Below are positions 2,655-37,368 of a stretch of 64,000 nt of DNA, in pieces (position 1 is the first letter of the stretch; each line of letters opens with the position of its first letter). The position numbers and the translations under genes were made by a program. Source of the stretch: Limimaricola hongkongensis DSM 17492. Lineage in GTDB: Bacteria > Pseudomonadota > Alphaproteobacteria > Rhodobacterales > Rhodobacteraceae. Location: the NCBI RefSeq assembly GCF_000600975.2, contig NZ_KK088653.1, forward strand, positions 868,501 through 932,500, given 5' to 3'. The notes below the pieces were generated by a model, which was not told the DNA's origin, made no database searches, and was given only the letters and a program-made list of their open reading frames with translations.

Positions 2655-3424
2655 CCCGGCTGGCTGGAAAATCCGCGCTGATCACCGGCGCCGGTCGCGG
2701 CATCGGCAGGGCCTTCGCCGAAGCCTATGTCCGCGAGGGAGCGCAGGTCGCCATCGCCGATATCGATCTCGGGGCGGCGCAGGAGGCCGCCGCCGCGATC
2801 GGCGCGGGGGCCTATGCCGTCCGGATCGACGTGACCCGGCAGGGCAGCATCGACGCCGCCATTGCGACGGTGGTCGAGAAGACCGGCAAGATCGACATTC
2901 TCGTCAACAACGCAGCCCTGTTCGACGCCGCCGAGACGGTCAACATCACCCGCGAGAGCTATGAGCGGCTCTACGCCGTCAACGTCGCGGGCACGCTGTT
3001 CACCATGCAGGCGGCGGCGCGGCAGATGGTCGCCCAAGGTCACGGCGGCAAGATCATCAACATGGCGAGCCAAGCCGGGCGCCGGGGCGAACCTCTCGTG
3101 CTGGTCTATTGCTCGACCAAGGCCGCCGTCATTTCGATGACGCAGTCGGCGGGGCTCAACCTCATCAGGCACGGCATCAACGTCAACGCCATCGCGCCCG
3201 GCGTCGTCGACGGTGCGCATTGGGAGCATGTCGACAGCATGTTCGCCAAGCTCGAAGGCAAGGCGCCCGGGCAGAAGAAGGCCGAGGTCGCCGCCGGCGT
3301 GCCGGCAGGCCGCTTTGCGACACCGGGGGATCTCACCGGCATGGCCGTGTTCCTCGCTTCGCCAGAGGCCGACTACATCGTGTCGCAGACTTACAACGTC
3401 GATGGCGGCCAGTGGATGAGCTGA
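2651..3424 (+). CDS. smoS: Sorbitol dehydrogenase SmoS (L-iditol 2-dehydrogenase, SDR family)
   Basis: This classical short-chain dehydrogenase has 257 residues and by family oxidises D-sorbitol to D-fructose with NAD. It carries the nucleotide motif TGAGRGIG (12-19), the NNA structural motif, a catalytic serine near 140 and the YCSTK dyad (Tyr153, Lys157). From memory, the central segment (SQAGRRGE, then [19 protein letters not shown]) is nearly the same as in the characterised Rhodobacter sphaeroides SmoS. Its start overlaps the smoK stop. Fructose made here could be handled by fructose-specific functions such as those encoded at 23-27 kb. Confidence 0.93.
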
Positions 3425-28412: not shown

Positions 28413-28437
28413 GGAACCCGCGCCACCGCGCATGGTT
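28413..28437 (+). promoter_or_regulatory. EcfG-like promoter upstream of otsBA
   Basis: GGAAC (28413-28417), a 16-bp spacer and GGTT (28434-28437) match the alphaproteobacterial EcfG consensus GGAAC-N16/17-CGTT except for one base. The start would be about 65 nt before otsB. Trehalose genes are known EcfG/RpoE2 targets in other alphaproteobacteria. Confidence 0.5.
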
Positions 28438-30698: not shown

Positions 30699-30723
30699 GG
30701 AACCAAGTGCCGCGCCGCCGGTT
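30699..30723 (+). promoter_or_regulatory. EcfG-like promoter upstream of the BrkB gene
   Basis: GGAAC (30699-30703), 16 bp, then GGTT (30720-30723) match the EcfG consensus with one mismatch, just as upstream of otsB. The site lies 25 bp after the otsA stop and about 185 bp before the membrane protein gene. Confidence 0.4.
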
Positions 30724-30906: not shown

Positions 30907-31824
30907 GTGCAGCTGTTGTCCCGATCGACCCGTTTTTTCACCCTGCCGCGCCTGCTGTGGCGGTTGCTGATCGGGCTGTGGACCCTGTCGGGCGAGGTGC
31001 AGCTCGGGCTGGTCGCGGCGGGGGTGGCCTTTTACTCGGTCTTCGCGATCTTTCCCGCCATCGCCGCGCTGATCGCGATCTTCGGCCTCGTCGCCGATCC
31101 CGAGGTGATCAAGGCGCAGCTCGAACTGATGCGCGAGATCATCCCGGTCGAGGCCTACGGGCTATTGACCGAGCAGTTGAACCTGATGGTGTCGACCCGG
31201 CCTGAAACCTTGGGTTTCGCGACGGTCATGTCGACCTTCGTGGCGCTGTTCTCGGCCCGCAATGGGGTCGCCTCGCTGATCCTCGGGCTCAACCAGATCT
31301 ATGGCCGTCCCAATCGCAACGGCGTGTGGCAACTGCTCGTGGCGATGCTGCTGACCTTTTCGCTGATCGCGATCGCGGTGCTGGCGATGCTGGTGGTGGT
31401 GGTCGCGCCGATCCTGCTGGCGGTGCTGCCGCTGGGCAGCGGCACGGGCTGGGCGCTCGAGGCGGTGCGATGGATCGCGGCCTTCGGCATCGTACTGGCG
31501 GGGCTCGGGGTGCTCTACCGGTTCGGGCCCAACATGCGCGGCGCGCGTGGGCGCTGGATCACGCCGGGGGCCTTTCTGGTGATCCTGTTCTGGCTGCTCG
31601 CCTCTGCCGGGTTCTCGTATTACCTGTCGAATTTCGGCAATTACAACGAGGTCTACGGCTCGATCGGCGCGGTCGTGGCGCTGCTGATGTGGCTGTTCAT
31701 CTCGGCATGGCTGGTGCTGCTTGGGGCTGCGATCAACGTGGTCTGGGCCCGGATCGTCCGGTCGGGCACCGGCATTTCGCAGGGCGCCATTCATCCCGGC
31801 CCGCGGCCAAGAGAGATCGGTTAG
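30907..31824 (+). CDS. YihY/BrkB family inner membrane protein
   Basis: This 305-residue protein has about six membrane helices and the family pattern AAGVAFYSVFAIFPAIAALIA near residue 40. YihY/BrkB proteins are of uncertain function; they are sometimes misannotated as RNase BN. The start is ambiguous: GTG at 30907 overlaps the GGAG element, whereas TTG at 30916 has GGAG at ideal spacing. It lies between trehalose synthesis and the stress regulators and may belong to the same regulon. Confidence 0.8.
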   Translation: MQLLSRSTRFFTLPRLLWRLLIGLWTLSGEVQLGLVAAGVAFYSVFAIFPAIAALIAIFGLVADPEVIKAQLELMREIIPVEAYGLLTEQLNLMVSTRPETLGFATVMSTFVALFSARNGVASLILGLNQIYGRPNRNGVWQLLVAMLLTFSLIAIAVLAMLVVVVAPILLAVLPLGSGTGWALEAVRWIAAFGIVLAGLGVLYRFGPNMRGARGRWITPGAFLVILFWLLASAGFSYYLSNFGNYNEVYGSIGAVVALLMWLFISAWLVLLGAAINVVWARIVRSGTGISQGAIHPGPRPREIG

Positions 31825-31876: not shown

Positions 31877-32689
31877 TCAGCCGTGCAGGGGGCCCGTCGA
31901 GGAAAAGAACATCGCCTGGCTCACCGCCGAGCGCACCTGCTCTTCGCCGTAAGGCTTGGAGATCAAGAAGGCGGGCTCGGGACGCTCGCCGGTCAGCAGC
32001 CGCTCGGGGAAGGCGGTGATGAAGATCACCGGCAGGTTGCCATGCGCCTCGAGAATGTCGCGCACGGCGTCGATGCCCGAGGAGTTGTCGGCGAGCTGGA
32101 TGTCGGCCAGCACGAGGTCGGGCTTTTCCTGCTGCGCCAGCTTGACCGCGTCGTCGCGGGTGCGCGCGACGCCAGTGATGGCGTGGCCCATGTCCGAGAC
32201 GATGGATTGCAGGTCCATGGCGATGATCGCCTCGTCCTCGATCACGAGGATACGGCCCGAGATGCTGTCTTCCATCTCCTGGCGCGCGATCTTGACGAGA
32301 TGCGCGACCTCGTCCTCGTCGGTCTGCATGATCTCGGCGATCTCGGCGGTCGAGAAATCCTCGATCGTGTTGAGCAGCAGCGCCTCGCGGGTGTTGGGGG
32401 TCAGCTTGGCGAGATGCGCCTGCGCCGCGGCGGCAAGGCCGCTTTCGTCGCCGGAGACGGGCGCGCCGGAGCTTTGCCAGATCAGGTGGAACACGCGAAA
32501 CAGCGCCGTGCGCGGCGAAGCGTCGGTGTCGAAGACCGAGCGATCCTCGAGAATGGCCTCGAGCGTGGCTGCGGCATAGGTGTCACCGCTGTCCTGGCTT
32601 CCTGTCAGCGCCCGCGCATAGCGGCGCAGATAGGGCAGCTCGTGCCCGATCACCGTGGCGAGGTCGGGTGCGGTGGTGGTTGTCGTCAT
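31877..32689 (-). CDS. phyR: Response regulator PhyR (sigma-factor-mimic) of the general stress response
   Basis: This 270-residue regulator has an N-terminal sigma-like domain (about 1-130) that mimics EcfG and a C-terminal receiver domain with VIEDEAIIAMDL and phosphoacceptor Asp196 in LADIQLAD. When phosphorylated, PhyR binds the anti-sigma factor NepR and frees EcfG. I chose the ATG at 32689 because the EcfG-type promoter (-10 at 32727-32730) places the transcript start downstream of the next in-frame ATG at 32743, which therefore cannot be used. It is divergent from nepR-ecfG, the classical arrangement. Confidence 0.95.
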   Translation of the reverse strand: MTTTTTAPDLATVIGHELPYLRRYARALTGSQDSGDTYAAATLEAILEDRSVFDTDASPRTALFRVFHLIWQSSGAPVSGDESGLAAAAQAHLAKLTPNTREALLLNTIEDFSTAEIAEIMQTDEDEVAHLVKIARQEMEDSISGRILVIEDEAIIAMDLQSIVSDMGHAITGVARTRDDAVKLAQQEKPDLVLADIQLADNSSGIDAVRDILEAHGNLPVIFITAFPERLLTGERPEPAFLISKPYGEEQVRSAVSQAMFFSSTGPLHG

Positions 32690-32719
32690 CGGCTGAGAGT
32701 CCCCAAATTCATTTTTTCT

Positions 32720-32744
32720 GGAACCGAACGCGGCCATTGGCATT
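32720..32744 (+). promoter_or_regulatory. EcfG-like promoter for nepR-ecfG
   Basis: GGAAC (32720-32724), 16 bp and CATT (32741-32744) give the EcfG consensus with one mismatch. It overlaps the perfect opposite-strand promoter of phyR. Confidence 0.5.
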
Positions 32745-32752
32745 GTGGTTCC
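32727..32752 (-). promoter_or_regulatory. EcfG promoter for phyR
   Basis: On the minus strand GGAAC (32752-32748), a 17-bp spacer and CGTT (32730-32727) match the EcfG consensus exactly. It predicts a 5' leader of about 30 nt before phyR and positive autoregulation. Confidence 0.75.
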
Positions 32753-32806: not shown

Positions 32807-33022
32807 ATGACACAGAGGGACCAGGGGAGCGCGCGTGGAGACATCGACGCCCATCTTAAGCGCGCCTTCCAGCAGCTCACCGACGAGGCTTTGCCAGACC
32901 GGTTCACCGATCTGCTGGCGCGGCTGAAGGCCGGTGAGGATGCGGATGACGCATCGTCCGAGGCCGACCAGACGCATTCGGACCGGGAAACGGCGGACGC
33001 ATCCAAGGTGGGCAGGGGCTAG
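32807..33022 (+). CDS. nepR: Anti-sigma factor NepR
   Basis: This 71-residue acidic protein has the conserved NepR core of two helices, IDAHLKRAFQQLTDEALPDRFTDLL split around residues 13-39, followed by a disordered charged tail. NepR holds EcfG inactive until PhyR-P binds it. Its TAG stop is 1 bp before the ecfG ATG, so anti-sigma and sigma are coupled at synthesis. Confidence 0.93.
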   Translation: MTQRDQGSARGDIDAHLKRAFQQLTDEALPDRFTDLLARLKAGEDADDASSEADQTHSDRETADASKVGRG

Positions 33023-33023
33023 A

Positions 33024-33581
33024 ATGAGCCAACAGGATCCGAAAGAAGAGCTGGTCGAACACCTCCCGGCCATGCGGGCCTTTGCGCTGTCGCTGACGCG
33101 CAACGGCGCCCAGGCCGACGATCTCGTGCAGGACACGGTGGTCAAGGCATGGACCAATTTCGACAAGTTCAAACCGGGCACCAACCTGCGTGCGTGGCTG
33201 TTCACCATCCTGCGCAACACGTTCTATTCGGGCCGCCGCAAGGCGCAGCGCGAGGTGGCCGATGTCGACGGCGTGTTCACCGCGTCGCTGGCCGAGAAGC
33301 CGGCGCATGACGGGCGGCTTCAGATGAACGATTTCCTGCGGGCTTTCGCGCAATTGCCCGACGAACAGCGCGAGGCGCTGGCCCTGGTCGGGGCATCGGG
33401 CTTTTCCTACGAGGAAGCGGCTGGAATGTGCGGTGTCGCGATCGGCACCATCAAGAGCCGCGCCAACCGCGCACGGGTGCGGCTGGCCGAGCTGCTCGAG
33501 CTCGAGGATCAGGACGGGCTCGGCATGACCGACGAGGCAACGATGGCCGTTCTGGCGGCCAGTGGTGGGTCTCACTTGTGA
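33024..33581 (+). CDS. ecfG: ECF sigma factor EcfG (general stress response)
   Basis: This ECF sigma factor of 185 residues has region 2 (about 12-75, DDLVQDTVVKAW and LFTILRNTFYSGRR) and region 4 (about 105-160, YEEAAGMCGVAIGTIKSR). The nepR-ecfG pair opposite phyR defines the ECF15/EcfG group. It should recognise GGAAC-N16/17-CGTT promoters, several of which occur in this window. The stop overlaps the GTG of the histidine kinase gene. Confidence 0.95.
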   Translation: MSQQDPKEELVEHLPAMRAFALSLTRNGAQADDLVQDTVVKAWTNFDKFKPGTNLRAWLFTILRNTFYSGRRKAQREVADVDGVFTASLAEKPAHDGRLQMNDFLRAFAQLPDEQREALALVGASGFSYEEAAGMCGVAIGTIKSRANRARVRLAELLELEDQDGLGMTDEATMAVLAASGGSHL

Positions 33582-35338
33582 CGGACGCCACCGGCGAACG
33601 GGCCCGGCCGGCGAAGGGCGGCGGCTGGTTCAACGCGCATGGGCTGGTCTTGCGCGTGGTCGCCTTCCTGACCATCGCGCTGATGCCCATCGGCCTGATC
33701 GCGATCTACCAGACCGCCGAGTTTCAACGCGAAACGCTGCGGCGGTCCGAGCTTTCCCTGCTTGCGCTGACGGCGCAGGCGGGGGCGCCGGTGGAGCAGA
33801 CCATCGAACGCGCCTTCGGCGTGGCCGAAGCGCTGGGCGTCGTGATCGACGAGCTCGACGATCCGGCCAGTTGTTCGAGCTATCTCGACCGCTATATCGA
33901 GGGGCGCAGGCTCTATGCGCTGATCGGTCTGGTCGATCCCGACGGGATCATGCGCTGTTCTTCGCATGACGTGCCGCTCGACATGCGCGACACTCGCATC
34001 TGGGAACAGATGTCGCTGTCGCCCGATGCCATCGTCACGCTGAACCAGCGTGACGAGGTGGCCGACGAACCGGTGATCAACGTCGCCAGCCCGATCGAGC
34101 GGGACGGCGAGTTCCGGGGCTATGTCCAGCTCGCGATTCCGCAGCGCCGTATCGCCGCACCGGTCGGCCCCGCAGAGGCCGACCGCAAGCCGGTCCAGCT
34201 CGTGACCTACAACGAATTGGGCGAGGTGCTCACCTTGCAGAACCCCGACCGGCCGCTCGAGACGCTGTTGCCCGAAGGGTTCGACCTGCGCGAGAAGACC
34301 GGCCTGCGCGCCGTCGCCGCGTCCGGCCGTTCGCCCGAAGGCGAGCAGCTCGTCTATGCCGTGACGCCGCTGGTTACGGGGACGGTGTTCGAGCTGGGCA
34401 TCTGGCCCGCCTCGGGGGCCTTCGCCTCGCCGCTCCTGCCGAGCCTGTTTCCGATCCTGATGTGGGCGGCGAGCCTGCTCGTGGCCTATTACGCGATCCA
34501 CCGGCTGGTGATCCGCCATGTCCGGCGGCTGGGCCGGTCGATGCGCCGTTTCGGCACGAGCCGCCAGCTGCCGCAGCAGGGCAGCACCGGCGACATGTCG
34601 CGCGAGCTGCGCGAGATCGAGGGCGAATTCGTGCAGATGGCCGGCAACATCCTGCAGGACGAGGCCCGGCTCGAAGACCAGCTGCGCGAGCGCGGCATCC
34701 TGCTCAAGGAGGTGCATCACCGGGTGAAGAACAACCTGCAGCTCATCTCCTCGATCATGTCGATGCAGATGCGCCGCACCCCCGACGCCACCACGCGCGA
34801 GATCCTGAGCCGGCTGCAGGACCGGGTGCTCGGCCTCGCCACGATCCACCGCACGCTCTACGAGAGCCAGGATGTCGGCCGGGTCAATGCGGCCCGGCTC
34901 TTGCGCGAGATCGTGGCCCAGCAATCGGGCGCGTCGAGCCCGCGCCCCGAGATGACCACGCGGCTCGATCTCGAGGATCTCGAACTGCTGCCCGATCAGG
35001 CGGTGCCGCTGTCGCTGCTGACCTCCGAGGCGCTGGCCAACGCGCTGGCCAATGCCGCGCCGGATGCCGAAGGGGCGGTCTGGGTGTCGGTGTCGATGCG
35101 CGCGGAGGCCGGCGGCATGGTGCGGATCGAAATCGCCAACTCGGCCGGGGCGGCGCCGCAGGGCCATGAAGAGGCCTCCGGCAAGGGGCCGCGCGCGCAG
35201 GGTCTGGGCATGAACCTCATCCAGGCCTTCGCGGCGCAGCTCGGTGGTCCGAGCGAAACCCTGCACGAAGGCAATGTCTACCGCCTCTCGACCGCCTTCC
35301 CGGTGCGCGAGATGCAATATGATCCGCAGGACTACTGA
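33578..35338 (+). CDS. Sensor histidine kinase of the HisKA_2/HWE type, candidate PhyR kinase
   Basis: This 586-residue membrane kinase has a helix near 26-45, a periplasmic sensor region of about 240 residues, a second helix near 290-312, a HAMP-like linker and a HisKA_2 dimerisation domain with H-box EVHHRVKNNLQ (His about 379), then an ATPase domain ending with GLGMNLIQAFAAQL. HisKA_2/HWE kinases are the usual partners of PhyR. The GTG start overlaps the ecfG stop, so sigma factor and kinase are cotranslated. Signal and phosphotransfer to PhyR are inferred from position and family. Confidence 0.9.
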   Translation: MTDATGERARPAKGGGWFNAHGLVLRVVAFLTIALMPIGLIAIYQTAEFQRETLRRSELSLLALTAQAGAPVEQTIERAFGVAEALGVVIDELDDPASCSSYLDRYIEGRRLYALIGLVDPDGIMRCSSHDVPLDMRDTRIWEQMSLSPDAIVTLNQRDEVADEPVINVASPIERDGEFRGYVQLAIPQRRIAAPVGPAEADRKPVQLVTYNELGEVLTLQNPDRPLETLLPEGFDLREKTGLRAVAASGRSPEGEQLVYAVTPLVTGTVFELGIWPASGAFASPLLPSLFPILMWAASLLVAYYAIHRLVIRHVRRLGRSMRRFGTSRQLPQQGSTGDMSRELREIEGEFVQMAGNILQDEARLEDQLRERGILLKEVHHRVKNNLQLISSIMSMQMRRTPDATTREILSRLQDRVLGLATIHRTLYESQDVGRVNAARLLREIVAQQSGASSPRPEMTTRLDLEDLELLPDQAVPLSLLTSEALANALANAAPDAEGAVWVSVSMRAEAGGMVRIEIANSAGAAPQGHEEASGKGPRAQGLGMNLIQAFAAQLGGPSETLHEGNVYRLSTAFPVREMQYDPQDY

Positions 35339-37002
35339 TGTCGCGCGCCGCGGATGAAGGCGCGGGCTCTTCCTCTCGCGCGCCCCGCGGCACCGGTGGT
35401 CGCGACAGCGATCCGGCCCATGCCCGCTGGGCGCGCGAGACGCTCCCCGATCCCGACCTGCCAAGGGATCCGCAGATCCCGATGCCGTTGATCACCGCCG
35501 AGCAGGCCTACCCGGTGTTCGAGCGCTGCTTCCTGGAGGCCCGCTCGCGGGTGCGCATGTCGTTTCGGGTGTTCGACCCCTTCACCCGCCTGCATTCGGC
35601 CTCGGCCCGCGAAATCGGCACCACATGGTTCGATCTGATCGTGCACAAGCTGCGCGCCGGGCTTCGGATCGAAATCGCGATCACCGATTTCGATCCGATC
35701 GCCGTCACCGCGATGCATGCGATGACATGGCAGTCGATTGAGGGGCTGATCGCGGCCGGAGAGGCCTCGGGCCATCCCGATCGCCTGGTGCTGCGCGCGG
35801 CGATGCATCCCGCCCGGGTCGGCGCGGTGCCGCGGACGCTGTTGTGGTACAAAAGCTGGAGCGAACTGCGCCGCGTCGCCCGCAGGCTCGGCGGCCTGCC
35901 GCCGGAGGAACGCACCCGGATGCTGCGGCTGCGGCGGGGCCTGGCCGGACATATCGGCGAACGGCGGGGCAGGCCGGTCGCCAAGATCTGGCCGATCCCC
36001 GAGCTTCACCTCGCGACGCATCACCAGAAGCTCGCCGTGTTCGACGATGATTGGCTCTATATCGGCGGTCTCGATCTAGATGATCGCCGTTACGACACGC
36101 TGCGCCATGACCGCCCCGCGCAGGAGACATGGCACGACGTGCAGCTGTTGATGGGCGGCACGGCCGTCGCCGATGCGCATCGCCATCTCGACAGCTATCT
36201 TTCCATCAACGAGGGGGTCGACCCGGTGCCGACGGGGCGGATCCTGCGCACGCTTTCGGCGCGGCGCAGCCCCGCGATCTGGCGGATGTCGCCCAAGCGC
36301 CAGGTCGAGGAGCTTTACGAGGCGCATCGCGATCTCTTCGCCGGGGCGCGCGACCTGATCTATGTCGAAACCCAGTTCATGCGCGACCGCGACATCGCGC
36401 GCAGCCTCGCGCGGGCGGGCCGCGCCAATCCGGGGCTGGGGCTTGTCATGGTGCTCCCGGCGGCACCCGAGGACGCGGCGTTCGACACCGCGCGCATGGA
36501 TGCGCGCTACGGCGATTACCTGCAGGCGCGCTGCATCAACAAGATCCGCCGTGCCTTTGGCGACAGGGCGCTGATCGTCTCGCCCGCGGTGCCGCGCCGG
36601 GCGCGCCCGGCGGATGTCGGGCCGCGCGCCCGGATGTGGCGCGCGCCGATCATCTATGTCCACGCCAAGGTCGCCATCGCCGACGGGACCGCCGCCATCG
36701 TGTCCTCGGCCAATCTCAACGGGCGCTCGATGCATTGGGACACCGAGGCCGGGGTGCGGCTCGACGGGGCGGAGTCGGTCGAACGGCTGCGCGAGGCCTG
36801 CATGCGGCACTGGATGGGCGCGGAGGGGCTGCCGCGACCGGGCGAGGGCGGCGCGGCGCTGGTGGCGCGCTGGCGCGGCATGGTCGAGGCGGATCGCGCG
36901 CGGGTGCCAGAGCTGCGCGCGCACATGCTGCTGCCATATCCGCTGCGTCCGGCCTGGCGACTGGGGCGCAATCTTCCGGGCATTCCCGAGGCGATGGTCT
37001 GA
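35338..37002 (+). CDS. Phospholipase D family protein
   Basis: This 554-residue protein has two HxKxxxxD motifs, HQKLAVFD (about 228) and HAKVAIAD (about 441), each followed by the usual GG or SSAN segment, so both halves of the PLD active site are intact. It lacks a clear signal peptide. It could hydrolyse or exchange phospholipid head groups (cardiolipin synthase-like) but is longer than Cls proteins and has no N-terminal membrane helices. It is coupled to the histidine kinase gene (TGATG), which suggests a role in membrane adjustment under stress. Confidence 0.88.
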   Translation: MSRAADEGAGSSSRAPRGTGGRDSDPAHARWARETLPDPDLPRDPQIPMPLITAEQAYPVFERCFLEARSRVRMSFRVFDPFTRLHSASAREIGTTWFDLIVHKLRAGLRIEIAITDFDPIAVTAMHAMTWQSIEGLIAAGEASGHPDRLVLRAAMHPARVGAVPRTLLWYKSWSELRRVARRLGGLPPEERTRMLRLRRGLAGHIGERRGRPVAKIWPIPELHLATHHQKLAVFDDDWLYIGGLDLDDRRYDTLRHDRPAQETWHDVQLLMGGTAVADAHRHLDSYLSINEGVDPVPTGRILRTLSARRSPAIWRMSPKRQVEELYEAHRDLFAGARDLIYVETQFMRDRDIARSLARAGRANPGLGLVMVLPAAPEDAAFDTARMDARYGDYLQARCINKIRRAFGDRALIVSPAVPRRARPADVGPRARMWRAPIIYVHAKVAIADGTAAIVSSANLNGRSMHWDTEAGVRLDGAESVERLREACMRHWMGAEGLPRPGEGGAALVARWRGMVEADRARVPELRAHMLLPYPLRPAWRLGRNLPGIPEAMV

Positions 37003-37024: not shown

Positions 37025-37049
37025 GGAACCTCCCGCTGCGGCCCGCGTT
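37025..37049 (+). promoter_or_regulatory. EcfG promoter upstream of the 28-residue peptide gene
   Basis: GGAAC (37025-37029), exactly 16 bp, then CGTT (37046-37049) match the EcfG consensus perfectly. The predicted transcript start is close to 37056, about 20 nt before the start codon. Confidence 0.7.
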
Positions 37050-37075
37050 GCGCCAGACACGACCAGGAGGACGCC

Positions 37076-37162
37076 ATGACCATCGCCATGATGGTGGCCG
37101 CCCTTGCGGGTCTGGTGGTGGTAGCGTTCCTGATCTTCCTGCTGACCGGCGGAGACGACTGA
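37076..37162 (+). CDS. Small single-span membrane peptide (28 aa), putative stress peptide
   Basis: The frame encodes 28 residues: a short start (MTIAMM), one hydrophobic helix of about 19 residues, and a GGDD tail. A near-ideal ribosome site, CAGGAGG, lies 7 nt before the ATG, and a perfect EcfG-type promoter lies 27-51 bp upstream. Such spacing of promoter, ribosome site and membrane helix is hard to explain by chance. Small membrane peptides of this size (KdpF, stress-induced E. coli peptides) often bind and tune larger membrane proteins; the partner here is unknown. I know of no named family for it. Confidence 0.68.
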   Translation: MTIAMMVAALAGLVVVAFLIFLLTGGDD

Positions 37163-37368
37163 CCAAAGACTGGAACCGCGCCATGGCCGTTTCGCTGCCG
37201 GACGGTCGCCGGGCCGGCCCGTCACGCCCGTTCTGCCCGGGCGGGACAGGCCGGCCTTACCCCCGCGTCGTCGTCCGGGCTGCAGTTGAAACCCCTCCGG
37301 CAGACCACTAAGACTCTGTGAGGACAAGATCCGCATGAGACGCAAGCGTTCCCGAAAAGGCAGAGCAG

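Follow-up and report, generated by a model that had tools for sequence, protein, structure and literature searches.

A conserved EcfG-type promoter and a 28-residue single-helix membrane peptide behind the general stress locus of Limimaricola hongkongensis

Background

Does the short interval between a phospholipase-D-like gene and clpP in Limimaricola hongkongensis DSM 17492 hold a gene, is that gene read by the sigma factor encoded just upstream, and what could its product do? The interval lies in a 64,000-nt stretch of contig NZ_KK088653.1 (the window, positions 868,501 to 932,500), whose numbering is used throughout. The gene order was found as the first-pass annotation had described it, phyR (minus strand)/nepR-ecfG-kinase-PLD, with the peptide directly after it; clpP comes next. 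The phyR gene (31877..32743, minus strand) matches PhyR_sigma2, PhyR_sigma-like and receiver models. An EcfG box, GGAAC-N17-CGTT, lies on the minus strand at the phyR/nepR gap (32727..32752). On the plus strand follow a nepR-like small ORF (32807..33022), assigned from position and length alone, ecfG (33024..33581), a HisKA_2 sensor histidine kinase with two hydrophobic segments (33578..35338, start assumed) and the phospholipase-D-like protein (PLD, 35338..37002).

The same phyR-nepR-ecfG-kinase-PLD locus is located on plasmid pDSHI02 in Dinoroseobacter shibae (L307, NC_009956.1 40000-49000), where it adjoins a glucosylglycerol-phosphate synthase gene and a DNA starvation protection gene.

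Results

The gene and its promoter

The gene proper occupies 37076..37162 of the plus strand, stop included, and with its promoter it spans 37025-37162. From translation and conservation, it encodes a 28-aa single-helix membrane peptide (MTIAMMVAALAGLVVVAFLIFLLTGGDD) with a best 19-mer mean Kyte-Doolittle value of 2.97 and a C-terminal GGDD tail. A Shine-Dalgarno sequence, AGGAGG (37065..37070, plus strand), is found 5 nt ahead of the ATG, and GAGGACG is present there in all eight Limimaricola genomes. Translation, ribosome site and hydropathy agree with the earlier description of the 28-codon frame. When ORFs are listed from the first start after a stop, this frame has no entry of its own but closes a longer open frame that runs from 36614.

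The promoter consists of a -35 element GGAAC (37025..37029) and a -10 element CGTT (37046..37049), both on the plus strand and separated by a 16-nt spacer. It had been noticed as an exact EcfG consensus, GGAAC-N16-CGTT, and was read as such at 37025-37049; the product of ecfG is its expected reader. In passages of published studies the consensus is given as GGAAC-N16-17-C/GGTT (PMC12148442), GGAAC-N16-CGTT (PMC7083833) or GAAC-N16,17-C/GGTT (PMC4814048). The pattern GGAAC-N16/17-CGTT was found 50 times on both strands of the 3.19-Mb genome, compared with 32 times when the pattern was reversed; a single box therefore says little on its own, and the case has to rest on conservation. Arithmetic from the backwards-pattern control gives a chance of about 3 in 10,000 for a box in a given 66-nt stretch of one strand.

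Two GGAAC-N16-GGTT boxes are also present on the plus strand of the window, at 28413-28437 and at 30699-30723, the latter about 200 nt ahead of a BrkB-like gene (30907-31824).

Conservation in Limimaricola and Pseudoroseicyclus

All eight Limimaricola genomes carry the PLD gene, and the same eight carry the peptide (81-100 % identical to the query). In each of them the -35 element is kept and GGAAC-N16/17-CGTT stands 51-61 nt ahead of the peptide start, in the gap behind PLD; the spacer is 17 nt in G004. Pseudoroseicyclus aestuarii (G341) encodes a peptide of 71 % identity with GGAAC-N16-GGTT at the same place. The outcome that the first-pass annotation had named as contrary to its proposal, a frame or promoter without conservation in relatives, did not occur in these genomes. 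Two features expected of an EcfG regulon member were present: the promoter GGAAC-N16/17-C/GGTT upstream, at 37025-37049 and in all eight genomes of the genus, and PhyR and EcfG encoded in the genome (NepR by position and size alone).

Within the Limimaricola set, variable sites at codon positions 1, 2 and 3 number 3, 5 and 16, respectively. Pairwise codon differences were synonymous in 197 cases and not in 63, where 28 % synonymous would be expected of single changes, with the pairs being non-independent. When the peptide alone was searched against 61 genomes, 11 had a match at E ≤ 1; the three matches outside the genus (G020, G040 and G045) were rejected as weak and lying within frames of 182-407 codons.

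Across the eight Limimaricola genomes, the interval from PLD to the clpP promoter region has three conspicuous elements, namely the box, the ribosome site with its frame, and a 27-nt block (CCATGGCC...ACGGTC; 37181..37207, plus strand) that lies 3' of the gene and is identical in seven of the eight. The block may be part of the 3' UTR or 3' end, or a clpP control site. A strong hairpin follows at 37211..37257 (plus strand; 101-nt fold, z = -1.7, this genome alone, without a long T run after it) and could be the end of the peptide transcript.

A wider family of single-helix proteins

With a consensus-like peptide query, five of 394 genomes of the bacterial family gave a match at E ≤ 0.05 (two Limimaricola, G341, G119 and G293). 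The G293 match (E 0.05) was dismissed because it lies inside a 552-codon frame, which we take to be a transporter permease. The first link outside was G119 (E 0.02 from the hand-made consensus query), a 34-aa frame with its own box, away from PLD. In G281, a 44-aa helix protein with a box was found directly behind PLD. These two and three Limimaricola/Pseudoroseicyclus peptides made up profile A2, which matched 38 of the 394 genomes at E ≤ 0.1. Twenty-eight loci were inspected. Short frames that begin close to or at position 1 of the profile were found in 14, and 13 of the 14 carry a box 48-69 nt ahead of the match; no box was seen at the other 14 loci apart from L101 (G242), a member with a box.

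Profile A3, built from 16 rows (the seeds), matched 94 of the 394 genomes at E ≤ 0.1. L. hongkongensis itself (G000) matched from the initiator Met with an E-value of 5.3e-11, its sequence being among the seeds. Seventy rows were inspected (30 loci given and 40 fetched; the rest, mostly long frames, were left out), of which 57 were judged members and 13 set aside, a division made by eye after the boxes were displayed and not blind. From these comparisons, the peptide belongs to an apparently unnamed family of single-helix proteins of 28-82 aa.

Two types were divided by eye: a short type of 28-55 aa (...GL...ALTS) and a longer type of 47-82 aa (...FALxSKKRxExR..DPNAPKSTLAxD). They were treated as one family because L146 and L147 join a short-type helix to a longer-type tail. 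Over the 57 members, residues 1-7 contain no K/R and 48 D/E, and residues 24-33 contain 197 K/R and 88 D/E. By the positive-inside rule, an N-out/C-in topology is likely for members with a K/R-containing tail, and it is predicted for most members other than the Limimaricola form because the K/R tail comes after the helix and residues 1-7 are free of K/R. In Limimaricola and Pseudoroseicyclus the tail reads GGDD, GGDG or GGGQ in place of the basic segment; this form is a tail-less branch of the family, and as the Limimaricola form is without a basic tail, its topology is not predicted.

Relatives of 57-60 aa (L232, L235 and L237; ...GILTFGTLGFVVAF...PKSxLSxDG) have no EcfG box and occur in genomes without strong PhyR; they are perhaps a housekeeping branch of the family. 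Longer-type members often stand beside recurring neighbour frames (L163, L166, L170, L175, L206, L208 and others). Two of the neighbour clusters (15 and 9 genomes) have representatives with matches to models of acetohydroxy acid isomeroreductase and phosphoglucomutase, and the conserved neighbours of the longer type pointed to no function. A different 60-aa one-helix protein (MAKDEKDTTVIS...), unreported by the family profile, follows an EcfG box behind PLD in L040, from about position 3070 of that locus.

Boxes upstream of family members

An EcfG box was found 45-110 nt upstream of 43 of the 57 judged members and of none of the 13 non-members; it was absent from this interval in the remaining 14 members. 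The search pattern accepted xGTT as the -10 element and spacers of 14-17 nt, and all boxes found have spacers of 16 or 17 nt. Forty members have the box within 45-75 nt, with CGTT in 22, GGTT in 13, TGTT in 4 and AGTT in 1, so that five of the 40 are off the C/GGTT consensus. The boxes were already visible when the seeds were chosen, so a fairer measure comes from the members outside the seeds (28/41), for which the controls gave 0 (pattern read backwards), 0 (window at -400), 1 (downstream window) and 1 (other strand). Of the seeds, 15/16 have a box and 5/16 also have one on the other strand, where paired divergent boxes occur.

Membership of the peptide gene in the EcfG general stress regulon, as proposed in the first-pass annotation, is thus strongly supported by comparison (eight of eight genomes of the genus, the neighbouring genus and 43 of 57 members), and we infer from these promoter patterns that it is very probable.

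Distribution and known families

In a set of 115 family genomes, whose matches were inspected down to E ~0.004, the PhyR_sigma-like cut-off was passed by 78 genomes, of which 51 were counted strong (≥38 bits); many of the weaker matches, in frames of about 200 codons, look like ECF sigma factors. All 20 judged members of this subset fall in the 51 strong-PhyR genomes (Fisher p 7e-9). Related-looking proteins of 57-60 aa in G027, G141 and G018, without box and without strong PhyR, were left out of the 20; if counted as members, the tally is 20/23. In a class-wide sample of about one genome per family, 16/115 had a match at E ≤ 0.05 and no convincing member was found outside the own bacterial family. 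The matches there beyond the own genome, at E 0.013 or worse, were rejected, lying in frames of more than 190 codons except for one 21-codon frame. As far as sampled, the family appears to be confined to this bacterial family.

No Pfam family was found for the peptide at E ≤ 0.1 and none above cut-off for 16 relatives; likewise, no NCBIfam model was above cut-off for the peptide and 15 relatives. In the open-licence literature, we found no description of the peptide family. Two longer-type relatives are recorded as 'hypothetical protein', WP_012187309.1 (Dinoroseobacter shibae pDSHI02) and WP_187432055.1 (Roseobacter litoralis pROLI81), with 51-55 % identity over 47-51 residues to the longer-type query. 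By coordinates they are 54 and 56 aa in length, roughly twice the size of the 28-aa form.

Position relative to phyR

No seed is farther than 6.7 kb from phyR. Of the 16, four (G000, G004, G341 and G281) were found at least partly by position, and the other 12, found by sequence alone, are all 2.9-6.6 kb from phyR. Five additional short-type matches were looked at: three (G086, G170 and G308) fall within the phyR locus, and two (G286 and G241) have no phyR in a stretch of 3.4-5.4 kb either side. For the longer type, 10 of 12 genomes in the 115-genome set have the member at least 75 kb from phyR or on another contig; in G089 and G097 it is within 7 kb.

Discussion

A probable small effector of the envelope

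The best reading, and one that we think somewhat probable, is a small inner-membrane stress effector transcribed by EcfG. The kinase/PhyR/NepR switch would release EcfG under stress; EcfG-RNA polymerase would start at about 37056 and give a short mRNA for the 28-aa peptide, which would insert in the inner membrane as one helix and alter the membrane or a membrane protein. Given membership in the regulon, a role as an envelope effector is rather probable.

An effector is favoured over a tuner of a membrane enzyme or of the kinase, the role suggested in the first-pass annotation, because genes for CsbD (PF05532), DUF1328 (PF07043) and entericidin-like (PF08085) proteins share the neighbourhood in relatives. 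These genes lie near the same kinase, encode short products and have their own EcfG box 51-91 nt ahead of the start. Among 20 phyR loci with strong PhyR and without the short peptide, CsbD was counted in 7, DUF1328-like genes in 8 and an entericidin-like gene in 1, with at least one of them in 13, as judged by reading the loci and checking one example of each in Pfam; in these loci the boxes stand 57-91 nt ahead of the starts. The peptide family differs from these proteins in being of one helix and 28-82 aa, and neither the peptide nor 16 relatives matched any of the three models above the Pfam cut-off. According to a passage on Sphingopyxis, csbD and ecnAB are EcfG targets (PMC7083833).

CsbD genes with an EcfG box were seen in other genera directly behind PLD (L048, L049, L060, L061, L117, L125 and L143), as were DUF1328 or entericidin-like genes close to the kinase (L286, L293 and L304).

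The place behind PLD is not a general slot for stress genes, as a box within 250 nt after PLD was absent in 26 of 39 PLD loci outside the genus (those with the PLD end placed; it was unplaced in 29/40 of one fetched set). The box was found within 250 nt in 13 of the 39, CsbD in 7 and a family member directly behind PLD in 2.

A possible modulator of the adjacent kinase

MgrB binds the sensor kinase PhoQ. Other small proteins that bind sensor kinases exist, such as DUF1127 with PhoR, as stated in part of a published account (PMC12501420). The peptide likewise stands beside a sensor-kinase pathway, a resemblance of linkage alone, and has no DUF1127 match. The helix of the peptide might bind the membrane-spanning region of the neighbouring HisKA_2 kinase, a possible partner with two hydrophobic segments, and so damp or prolong PhyR phosphorylation, with EcfG closing the loop. 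Eighteen of 20 loci compared hold phyR, ecfG and the kinase along with the peptide, which immediately follows the kinase in five (G013, G086, G098, G308 and G411). However, since relatives have genes for CsbD, DUF1328 and entericidin-like proteins close to this kinase, position alone fits plain effectors as well, and four loci (G112, G136, G175 and G396) encode the peptide on the other strand, at a distance of 1.4-3.7 kb from the kinase. The mostly unlinked longer type (10 of 12 genomes) also counts against it, as does the short-type helix, whose conservation has no helical period (p 0.81) and hence no conserved face; the marginal period in the longer type (p 0.04) would fit a protein partner and was not relied on. 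We consider such feedback rather unlikely. The same doubtful standing is given to its broader version, in which an overlooked component of the general stress locus, a tiny membrane protein made by EcfG, would bind the locus kinase and set the strength or duration of the response, and the mostly unlinked longer paralogue would do likewise for other membrane partners.

Other explanations

A YohP-like action is less probable still. The 27-aa YohP of E. coli is reported, in a portion of one study, to lower membrane potential and fluidity and to slow metabolism (PMC12719787), and the peptide might silence the membrane under stress in this way. YohP is from another lineage and was likened to the peptide by size (<30 aa), single helix and stress link alone, the last being a stress-type promoter in the case of the peptide. 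Against this, the wider family has an acidic N-side and a tail rich in K/R, which suggest something more specific, although the 28-aa form is without that tail.

It is very unlikely that the frame is incidental and the box a promoter for a regulatory RNA or for clpP. The 27-nt block with clpP next to it would suit such a reading, but the bias towards synonymous changes, the kept ribosome site and the protein-level relatives elsewhere speak for a protein gene.

An accessory subunit of the PLD-like enzyme is the least credible. The peptide is directly behind PLD in Limimaricola, Pseudoroseicyclus and G281 (three of the 18 loci: G004, G281 and G341), but PLD is an optional neighbour: it was missing from the stretch fetched for 12 of these loci, some of which carry it elsewhere, and only two of the 39 PLD loci outside the genus have a family member directly behind PLD. 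Where genomes have PLD, 14 of 35 members are within 20 kb of it.

Significance

The gene, the box, their conservation, the family and the linkage to phyR are seen in the sequences themselves, and dependence on EcfG, insertion in the membrane, topology and the leading reading as a small envelope effector are inferences from sequence comparison. This stress gene, shorter than gene callers normally report, has relatives in dozens of genera, and the short form of the family mostly sits within the control locus of the general stress response. A survey of the EcfG regulon that starts from annotated genes could overlook the gene. For Rhodobacter sphaeroides, one study reports that the PhyR cascade serves membrane stress and not general stress (PMC5830050); with a membrane output specific to the lineage, there would be a concrete gene for testing that role. 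The box, the family profile and the locus position allow a search for the gene in a tractable strain.
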